A DNA stretch of 64,000 nt, taken from Nitrosomonadaceae bacterium (GTDB lineage Bacteria > Pseudomonadota > Gammaproteobacteria > Burkholderiales > Nitrosomonadaceae). Position 1 is the first letter of the stretch. Each line of letters opens with the position of its first letter. The stretch lies in NCBI GenBank assembly GCA_014190895.1, contig BJGV01000001.1, positions 1-64,000 of the forward strand, read 5' to 3'. Shown piece after piece: positions 45,365 to 50,307 of this stretch. The translations under genes were made by a program, and so were the position numbers. The notes beneath the pieces are model-generated. The model saw only the letters and a program-made list of their open reading frames with translations. It ran no database searches and was not told the DNA's origin.

Positions 45365-46474
45365 TTATCTAATAATCGTGATAGGAATTCCGGAAATCTT
45401 ATTTCGATTATTTAGTTCTTCGGTAACCCATTTAGGAACTGGTTCAGCAACCATTGTCCCTGAGGTTTTTGGGCCTCGGATAGACGTAAATAGTCCTTTG
45501 AATGGGTGTTGTAGCATATCTTCAACTGCAGTTGCTTCATAACCACAGTGAGCCATGCATTGCGCGCATTTTGGATTGTTAGTGTTACCGTATTTTTCCC
45601 AAGGCGTGTCTTCCAGAAGCTCTTTGAAACTAGATGCGTATCCTTCATCTGATAACAGATAACATGGTTTCTGCCAGCCAAAAACATTGCGGGTTGGATT
45701 GCCCCATGGGGTGCAATCATAACTCTGATTACCCGCCAAAAAATCAAGATATAACGTGGAATGATTTAGTTTCCAATTACGTTTTTTGCCGATCTTGAAA
45801 ATCCCTCGAAATAGATTTTTAGTGTCTTTACTTTTAATAAAGACGTCTTGCTGAGGGGCTCGTTCGTAGCTGAATCCGGGCGCAATTGTTGCGCCTTCAA
45901 TACCGAGAGTCATAGCGTAATCTAAAAATTCAGCAACATCTTCTGGAGTTTCACCTTGAAAAAGGGTGCAATTTACAGTGACCCTAAAACCTTTCTCAAC
46001 AGCTATTTTTATCGCCTCAACGGCCCTATCAAAGACACCTTCTTGGCAAACTGAGGCATCGTGTCTTTCTTGCATTCCATCTAGGTGAATGGAGAAAGTC
46101 AGGTAAGGAGATGGAGTGTAATCATCAATTCTTTTCTTTAGTAATAAAGCATTCGTACAAAGATAAATATATTTTTTTCGAGCAATAATACCGGCTACTA
46201 TTTGTGGCATTTCTTTATGTATGAGTGGTTCCCCACCTGGAATAGAAACCATTGGCGCATCGCATTCATCCACGGCCTGCATACATTCTTCAAATGACAA
46301 ACGTTTGTCTAGAATTTCGTCAGAGTAATCTATCTTCCCGCAACCACCGCAGGCCAAGTTGCAACGAAATAAAGGCTCCAGCATTAGAACCATGGGGTAC
46401 TTCTTAACCCCCCTTAATTTCTGTTTTATCAGATAGCTACCTACGGCTAGTTGTTGTCGTAAAGGCACCCCCAT
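45365..46474 (-). CDS. hpnH: Adenosyl-hopene transferase HpnH (radical SAM)
   Basis: Adds the adenosyl group of SAM to the hopene C30 position, the first step in extending the side chain. At 369 residues, the radical-SAM cluster cysteines are Cys38, Cys42 and Cys45 in CNLACGGC, and the N-terminus MGVPLRQQLAVGSYLI is typical. A second Cys-rich region (CAQCMAHCGYE near 311-321) is also usual. First gene of the hopanoid run, 55 bp before hpnM, with tRNA-Leu just upstream on the same strand. Confidence 0.95.
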   Translation of the reverse strand: MGVPLRQQLAVGSYLIKQKLRGVKKYPMVLMLEPLFRCNLACGGCGKIDYSDEILDKRLSFEECMQAVDECDAPMVSIPGGEPLIHKEMPQIVAGIIARKKYIYLCTNALLLKKRIDDYTPSPYLTFSIHLDGMQERHDASVCQEGVFDRAVEAIKIAVEKGFRVTVNCTLFQGETPEDVAEFLDYAMTLGIEGATIAPGFSYERAPQQDVFIKSKDTKNLFRGIFKIGKKRNWKLNHSTLYLDFLAGNQSYDCTPWGNPTRNVFGWQKPCYLLSDEGYASSFKELLEDTPWEKYGNTNNPKCAQCMAHCGYEATAVEDMLQHPFKGLFTSIRGPKTSGTMVAEPVPKWVTEELNNRNKISGIPITIIR

Positions 46475-46569: not shown

Positions 46570-46656
46570 TGGTGCCGGGAGGGGGAATCGAACCCCCATG
46601 ATGTCACCATCGCGGGATTTTGAGTCCCGTGCGTCTACCAATTTCGCCATCCCGGC
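46570..46656 (-). tRNA. tRNA-Leu (anticodon CAA)
   Basis: 87 nt with encoded CCA and a long variable arm, as for leucine. Acceptor stem GCCGGGA/TCCCGGC, discriminator A. The anticodon stem CGGGA/TCCCG holds CTCAAAA, giving CAA, which reads TTG. No terminator was recognised between it and hpnH, 96 bp downstream. Confidence 0.95.
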
Positions 46657-46875: not shown

Positions 46876-47970
46876 TCAAAAATTTATCGCTAAAGCGGTT
46901 GTTAGAAATGTGTTGGTATCTGCGGTATTGCCATTATGCCTACCAAAGACTTTATCTTTACTGGTTAATGCCCTGGCTTCAATTCTCCAGATGAGGTTTT
47001 TTGTGATGTGATAATCAAAGTTGGTTGAAAATCCCCATGTTTTAAAACCATTAGGTGTCTCAGATGCAATAATTACACCATTCTTGTCATTATAGTACTC
47101 TGTTCTAACAGCAATAGCAGCTTTCTCCGTTAACTCATATCTTAAGATCAATGTTGGATTGAACCATATGTTCATGGCCGATGAATTCAGATCTTTTTGT
47201 TCGGCTCCGATATCGAAACCAACGATTGCATCCCATCCATTTTGTAGATCTAAGAAGGCATAGAAGTTATGCAGGTAACGCATTTTCCTAGTATTATCAG
47301 GCTTGTCAGTACCAATAAATGTACTGCTGTTTAATGTCACTCTCGAGGAGGGTTTATAAGTGATTTGGGTACCAAATGCAGGAAGCGTGTTGCCATCTAA
47401 AGGCTGAATGCGTTGCCAACCACTGAGAATTAATGCACTTAGAAATAACTTCCCATCATTTGATGTGCTGCTTATTTTGGTACCAGCTTCAAAATAAGGA
47501 GTATTTTCTCCCTGCATGCTTCTAGTTAAATTAAAGTGCTCTTTACCAATAGCGTTCTCGAAACCAATGTGTGATGTAAAGATACCTACATCAAGCCACA
47601 CATTATTCTCTTTTAAAAGCAGTACGCCGATATTCCCCTCATAAAGATTCTTTAGTAGACTAGATTCTGCTGCATAATTAGTGCGCATATAGCTACCAAG
47701 ACCTAATGCAAGATTTGCCCTGATGTTTTCTGTATCGTACGATCCTTTAATAAAAGCTAAATTTAACGAGACCTCATCATTCTTGTTGTGGTTGACAAAA
47801 AATGATGGTTTCTTATGATTCATAGAATTGTTTAGATCAACAGAATAATACCCCTCAGCGTAACCACTAATAGTAAATGGGGATGACAGCTCGCCTTTAG
47901 TTCCGGTATTTTCTTGTGCATGAACTCCTAGGCTTGTCAGCAACCAGAGAATTAGTAGAATATGTTTCAT
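46876..47970 (-). CDS. Outer-membrane beta-barrel protein (BBP2/OmpL-like porin)
   Basis: 364 residues with a signal peptide ending VHA-Q (about 1-18) and alternating beta-strand pattern throughout, ending in Phe as outer-membrane barrels do. FTISGYAEGYYSVDLN near 32-47, FVNHNKNDEVSLNLAFIKG near 57-75 and FKTWGFSTNFDYHITKNLIWRIEAR near 312-336 resemble the putative beta-barrel porin-2 proteins that I know mainly from Bacteroidetes. AAGG lies 4 nt before the start. It probably forms a porin; substrate unknown. The Bacteroidetes-like style suggests transfer, not proven. Confidence 0.8.
   Translation of the reverse strand: MKHILLILWLLTSLGVHAQENTGTKGELSSPFTISGYAEGYYSVDLNNSMNHKKPSFFVNHNKNDEVSLNLAFIKGSYDTENIRANLALGLGSYMRTNYAAESSLLKNLYEGNIGVLLLKENNVWLDVGIFTSHIGFENAIGKEHFNLTRSMQGENTPYFEAGTKISSTSNDGKLFLSALILSGWQRIQPLDGNTLPAFGTQITYKPSSRVTLNSSTFIGTDKPDNTRKMRYLHNFYAFLDLQNGWDAIVGFDIGAEQKDLNSSAMNIWFNPTLILRYELTEKAAIAVRTEYYNDKNGVIIASETPNGFKTWGFSTNFDYHITKNLIWRIEARALTSKDKVFGRHNGNTADTNTFLTTALAINF

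Positions 47971-48166: not shown

Positions 48167-50307
<2,141 letters not shown>

Follow-up and report, generated by a model that had tools for sequence, protein, structure and literature searches.

The window analysed here, a 64,000-nucleotide stretch of contig BJGV01000001.1 (GenBank assembly GCA_014190895.1) from a Nitrosomonadaceae bacterium, carries at 46876..47970 on the minus strand an intact, ATG-initiated open reading frame for a porin of 364 amino acids. On one side of it are tRNA-Leu(CAA) (46570..46656, minus strand; detected by ARAGORN) and then the hopanoid block hpnH-hpnM-hpnN, whose first gene beyond the tRNA is hpnH (45365..46474, minus strand; NCBIfam TIGR03470, E 3.4e-168). 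On the other side is the divergent pair queA-tgt, with queA (48167..49195, plus strand), recognised from its ORF and an orthologue search over 61 genomes, forming the right-hand flank. Together, the tRNA and queA mark the insertion site of the porin gene. The original prediction had described a Bacteroidetes-style outer-membrane barrel beside tRNA-Leu, between the hopanoid genes and queA, and both its placement and its identification of the protein are borne out. The Pfam BBP2 profile (PF07642, putative beta-barrel porin-2, OmpL-like) matches with 321.1 bits against a gathering cut-off of 26.2 (E 1.2e-95), residues 32-364 covering profile positions 2-339 of 339, that is, end to end, and the quoted blocks FTISGYAEGYYS, NHNKNDEVSLNLAFIKG and GFKTWGFSTNFDYHI are present. 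As read from the sequence, the N-terminus resembles a signal peptide (likely residues 1-19, MKHILLILWLLTSLGVHAQ; 47914..47970, minus strand) and the beta-barrel domain (residues 32-364; 46876..47877, minus strand) terminates in phenylalanine.

BBP2 is an already known and broader family whose name states no substrate, and the window protein belongs to a subfamily that in Bacteroidota is linked to K+ importers. It is the sole BBP2 protein found when the whole genome was searched. At E<=1, the Pfam scan returned besides BBP2 just KdgM and Porin_2, both below their cut-offs, and no match to the Porin_O_P (OprP/OprO) profile; a comparison with PDB sequences gave nothing useful (best E 0.6), and NCBIfam held no informative family. 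The gene has a G+C content of 37.7% and a GC3 of 34.0%, within the range of its neighbors (30-35% for queA, tgt, secD and three hpn genes, 40.7% for yajC); its composition is therefore host-like, with no sign of recent import.

An AlphaFold model built on a 59-row alignment (mean pLDDT 83.2, pTM 0.79) places 16 strands between residues 32 and 363, with a helix at residues 2-13, low confidence at 9-27, and pLDDT below 50 in segments 139-144 and 147-149. The closest solved folds are Pseudomonas OprO/OprP (Z approximately 25, rmsd 2.8-3.2 over 301-310 residues), followed by general porins (Z 22-23); identity to the best solved folds is 7-14%. Since the model matches both anion channels and general porins at such low identity, the predicted fold does not name the substrate. 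The concept of a one-substrate porin would be shared with OprP/OprO, but identity to them is 14%, their Porin_O_P profile finds no match, and the genes linked to the window subfamily concern K+ rather than phosphate. Inward-facing charges, assigned via hydrophobic alternation and not from coordinates, amount to about 11 conserved acidic and 9 conserved basic residues per barrel. Cation selectivity based on conserved lumen residues was considered and rejected, the predicted charges being mixed and presenting no clear cation filter. These charges and the similarity to anion channels count against K+ passage.

Gene neighborhood in Bacteroidota

A scan that took a single genome from each of 84,980 species kept the best 80 of 250 relatives, of which 21 are nitrifier loci and 59 are Bacteroidota loci (one titled Candidatus Kapaibacterium). 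The usual gene order in Bacteroidota is kdpA-kdpB-kdpC-porin-kdpD(N)-kinase. Among the 59 named Bacteroidota loci, 56 have kdpC directly upstream of the porin on the same strand and within 700 bp, 52 have KdpD-N immediately downstream of it, and 57 have some kdp gene beside it. The two exceptions are L096 and L101, the latter having a KdpE-like regulator and a DUF4118 kinase divergent from the porin. These loci were chosen by similarity; a separate sample of 296 Bacteroidota genomes was drawn regardless of the porin, and in it the porin (E<=1e-20) occurs in 54 genomes and kdpB in 84. With porin matches of at least 400 bits, kdpB precedes the porin by 0.6-2.1 kb, on the same strand, in 24 of 25 genomes, compared with kdpB in 60 of the remaining 271 sample genomes (odds ratio 84, p 1e-13). 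A kdpB-linked porin is found in 27/30 genomes at a cut-off of at least 300 bits, which was picked after the matches were known, and in 28/51 at a cut-off of at least 85 bits, which was counted as well, like that of 400 bits. At 300 bits or more, the porin of G619 lies 16 bp before kdpA, that of G649 immediately follows TrkH and a TrkA-domain protein, and that of G527 immediately follows Kup, no kdpB being found in the latter two; in all 30 genomes the porin adjoins a K+ importer, and these importers belong to three unrelated types.

Below 300 bits, the surroundings were covered at 16 of 26 places: one porin follows Kup (G712, 284 bits) and one follows kdpB (G560, 194 bits), and the other scanned neighbors are not K+ genes, which counts against a role in K+ passage. 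Two distant BBP2 porins stand beside Amt (L203:3-2198 and L012:3-2649, the latter with P-II between), which also counts against it; they are perhaps the NH4+ counterpart of the K+-linked porins.

What might explain the presence of a porin in these operons? The well-known Kdp system (kdpFABC with kdpDE) is not known to have an outer-membrane part; the kdp operon of Bacteroidota regularly includes the porin. The protein could be a general diffusion porin with little selectivity that cells produce in response to osmotic or K+ stress, housed in kdp operons as KdpD-type regulation suits it and, in nitrifiers, just another of the general porins. The fold similarity to general porins, the mixed lumen charges and the persistence of the porin in nitrifiers that lack Kdp all lend something to this explanation. 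The linkage reaches TrkH-TrkA and Kup in Bacteroidota where no kdpB was found, however, a pattern that tracks the substrate and not a single regulator. We regard a general porin as a possible but rather doubtful explanation.

Nitrifier porins and K+ importers

The 21 nitrifier loci come from Nitrosomonas, Nitrosospira, Nitrosovibrio, other Nitrosomonadaceae or Proteobacteria, and four Ca. Nitrotoga (Gallionellaceae). Same-strand kdp genes lie beside the porin in four of them (L024, L026, L029 and L036) and in G035, where the order is accA-kdpABCDE-porin-ABC-F; L036 is likewise kdp-bearing, its accA side falling outside the covered sequence. The porins of Nitrosomonas oligotropha Nm75 (L024) and Nitrosospira sp. 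56-18 (L036) belong to the same nitrifier clade as the window porin and are 62% and 54% identical to it, but they still stand beside kdp genes and the window copy does not. In several ammonia oxidizers, kdpE and the porin are separated by a CorA-like protein of 553-577 amino acids with a sub-cut-off Pfam match (L024:3111-5360, L026, L027, L122:7385-9831) and by a small protein that contains cysteine.

The accA/porin/ABC-F locus of the G035 type occurs without kdp in L022 and G015, and two orphan porins have a kdpE relic upstream on the same strand, of 129 residues at 86% identity in L027 and of 64 residues at 64% with two stops in L035. At least in these cases, the porin has outlived its adjacent kdp genes. 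In a quick tree, KdpB of seven nitrifier rows groups with other betaproteobacteria (support 98), apart from the porin-linked KdpB of Bacteroidota. The nitrifier porin thus stands beside a kdp lineage other than its original one, and a functional tie is therefore favored. Transfer of the whole operon, kdp and porin together, into nitrifiers is unsupported by the KdpB tree, with which a whole-operon transfer followed by replacement of kdp would be compatible.

The tie to Kdp is loose in nitrifiers: kdpB is present in 5/19 named porin-bearing nitrifier genomes, and this counts against the K+ interpretation, as does the orphan state of the window porin, whose tRNA-Leu and queA flanks include no K+ gene. 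No kdpB was found in any of the eight genomes of the window's genus. The window genome has no detectable TrkH either, and the only K+ importer detected in it is a Kup on another contig (L211; G000:C12:32861-34222). Its seven genus-mates have TrkH and no Kup; the main K+ importer is swapped between the window genome and its genus-mates.

The nitrifiers might instead have taken over the pore for nitrogen compounds, supplying NH4+ to periplasmic ammonia oxidation or carrying NO2- traffic, and this would explain why no proteobacteria other than nitrifiers retained it. K+ and NH4+ are alike in size, Amt neighbors some of the distant BBP2 porins described above, and the Pseudomonadota among the best 80 of 250 relatives are confined to Nitrosomonadaceae and Ca. 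Nitrotoga. However, Ca. Nitrotoga oxidizes nitrite, an anion, so that a shared substrate is not obvious, and linkage to amo, hao or nxr was not recognized in the flanks examined; we regard this takeover as quite improbable. Among 37 genomes searched, 13 have ammonia monooxygenase, each of them one of the 23 family members, and the corresponding profile (PF02461) was found neither in the window genome nor in 4/7 genus-mates. Loss of ammonia oxidation from the window genome was set aside: according to a study of streamlined Nitrosospira, contigs with amo and hao commonly escape binning (PMC9239080), and for that reason the missing AMO is probably not a real loss. The same study describes a streamlined freshwater clade, NspGL1, with a median genome size of 1.42 Mb and 40.7% G+C (PMC9239080). 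The window genome, whose assembly is 1.32 Mb and 99.97% complete, appears akin to it in size and G+C.

Ancestry and age of the porin

Among 61 related genomes, 14 contain some porin match (E<=0.001), and 10 of 37 family members have an intact copy; at E 1e-20 the porin was found in none of 368 class genomes besides the window's. The nearest non-nitrifier relatives among the best 80 of 250 are all Bacteroidota, approximately 50-57% identical. A 100-row tree, with SH-aLRT support values only, omitted 13 named Bacteroidota loci as near-duplicates (12 Flavobacterium/Flexibacter and one Olivibacter) and further Bacteroidota, and unites all 26 nitrifier rows in one clade (SH-aLRT 99). A 57-row tree, a smaller choice from the same set, recovers its 19 nitrifiers as one clade (100/99), inside Bacteroidota and beside a Chitinophagaceae/Mucilaginibacter pair, through nodes supported at 97/96, 81/89 and 94/84, the last being the node that joins this pair. 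In both trees the window porin groups with kdp-linked Bacteroidota and nitrifier sequences, and the 57-row tree puts nitrifier genes closest to it. Forcing the in-group Bacteroidota together without the nitrifiers costs 18.6 log-likelihood units and is not rejected by the AU test (p-AU 0.25). The BBP2 proteins used as outgroup in that test are also from Bacteroidota, so this node is not the only basis for the ancestry, and a Bacteroidota origin of the nitrifier porins is well supported by the sequence comparisons. Horizontal transfer had been predicted for the porin, with a protein tree as the check: the Bacteroidota relatives, the nesting of a single nitrifier clade and the absence from the 368 class genomes speak for it, and the alternative topology left standing by the AU test tempers it. 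Ca. Nitrotoga and the Nitrosomonadaceae belong to different families, and transfer of the porin between nitrifiers is likely.

The AU result would also permit an ancient betaproteobacterial gene, retained by nitrifiers only and then passed to Bacteroidota, since it allows nitrifiers outside the in-group Bacteroidota. Against such a history stand the 368 other class genomes devoid of the porin, the Bacteroidota outgroup and the nesting of nitrifiers in the best tree, and it is highly improbable.

When did the porin reach the queA/tRNA-Leu site? In seven of seven family genomes examined from other genera, queA and tRNA-Leu(CAA) are adjacent, with a gap of 80-130 bp and no porin between them. In the window's genus, five of the eight genomes have an intact porin in this gap (the window, G001, G002, G005 and G006), the four others being 57-58% identical to the window porin, and G004 has a broken porin at the same site. 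No porin ORF was found in the gap in G003 and G007, where it still measures 576 and 1127 bp. In G003, a stretch resembling the 18 C-terminal residues of the porin scores E 0.005, the best of 20 shuffled queries reaching E 0.003; its strand, position and stop agree with those of a porin, which suggests, and no more than suggests, a real remnant, though the score is no better than that of shuffled sequence. Because other genera have nothing at the site and this one has it occupied by the porin or widened by remnants, the porin most likely entered it at the root of the genus, either by insertion or by relocation, and some members are losing the gene. The dN/dS values are 0.09-0.20 for six pairs among G001, G002, G005 and G006, and the porin is under purifying selection although the genus is without Kdp.

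The comparison of the hpnH-queA interval in relatives, which had been proposed as a check, thus returned an empty gap in other genera, together with an occupancy across the genus that makes the entry old. The description of the porin as new to this lineage is not supported: copies occur throughout Nitrosomonadaceae and in Ca. Nitrotoga, synteny is kept within the genus, the composition is ordinary and the nearest relatives are from nitrifiers. Recent direct transfer from Bacteroidetes into the window genome, or contamination of the assembly, has the sequence style and the patchy family distribution in its favor, and it is extremely unlikely in the face of same-site orthologs in four genus-mates, a broken copy in a fifth, nitrifiers as nearest relatives and host-like composition; synteny across several assemblies made independently contradicts it.

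What we take to be a serine-recombinase fragment (L131:2547-2855) and a TIR/SEFIR-like protein (L133:4479-5918) are found close to queA/tRNA-Leu in G011 and G020, and the tRNA-Leu may be an insertion hot spot. G006 and G002 presumably have a UmuC/UmuD-like pair (L125:6794-8676 and L135:5578-7490) between the tRNA-Leu and an ispH-like gene. The window has no UmuC/UmuD-like pair between hpnH and the tRNA. Elsewhere in the related genomes, G030 contains a broken second porin copy (L016; G030:C14:311542-311892), whose neighbors resemble those of the intact G027 copy (L008).

Proposed K+ supply across the outer membrane

General porins are usually regarded as the route by which K+ passes the outer membrane. 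Considering the family membership, predicted fold, operon linkage, phylogeny, kdp relics and purifying selection together, we favor, with a probability of about 0.58, a K+ porin born in Bacteroidota that feeds K+ importers, was gained by nitrifiers and is free of Kdp in the window's genus. The usual job of this BBP2 subfamily would be the passage of K+, and possibly of similar small cations such as NH4+, across the outer membrane. K+ (perhaps NH4+) would diffuse through the barrel into the periplasm, from which Kdp, Trk or Kup would take it up, the importer fed being mostly Kdp, and Trk/Ktr or Kup in some organisms. Such a dedicated pore might be worthwhile when K+ is in short supply or when there are few general porins. 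The porin would have arisen in Bacteroidota, whose kdpABC-porin-kdpD operon normally has it as a constant member, and would have reached the betaproteobacterial nitrifiers probably once, the kdp genes of Bacteroidota not being kept. In some nitrifier lineages it would have come to stand beside their own betaproteobacterial kdp, and others would have lost kdp and retained the porin. In the window's genus the porin occupies the tRNA-Leu/queA site and would work without Kdp. The window porin is thus probably a K+ doorway, to judge from the sequence comparisons, kept by a nitrifier genome that has no high-affinity K+ pump. K+ is the permeant suggested by the linked genes, and the importer served here would be Kup or Trk. 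In a wider formulation, dedicated outer-membrane K+ channels, with NH4+ relatives, would travel with Kdp, Trk or Kup, and nitrifiers would have captured the K+ version once in a form that may admit NH4+; we think this unlikely.

Among openly accessible papers we found none linking the BBP2 porin family to K+ uptake, and the available main text of a Chryseobacterium study that discusses Kdp contains no word beginning with "porin" (PMC10634447). The porin is also a specific example of a gene that passed from Bacteroidota to nitrifiers. If the K+ interpretation is true, the supply of K+ (perhaps NH4+) across the outer membrane can be a dedicated step, and a "putative porin" without known substrate would become a testable assignment in cultured type strains.
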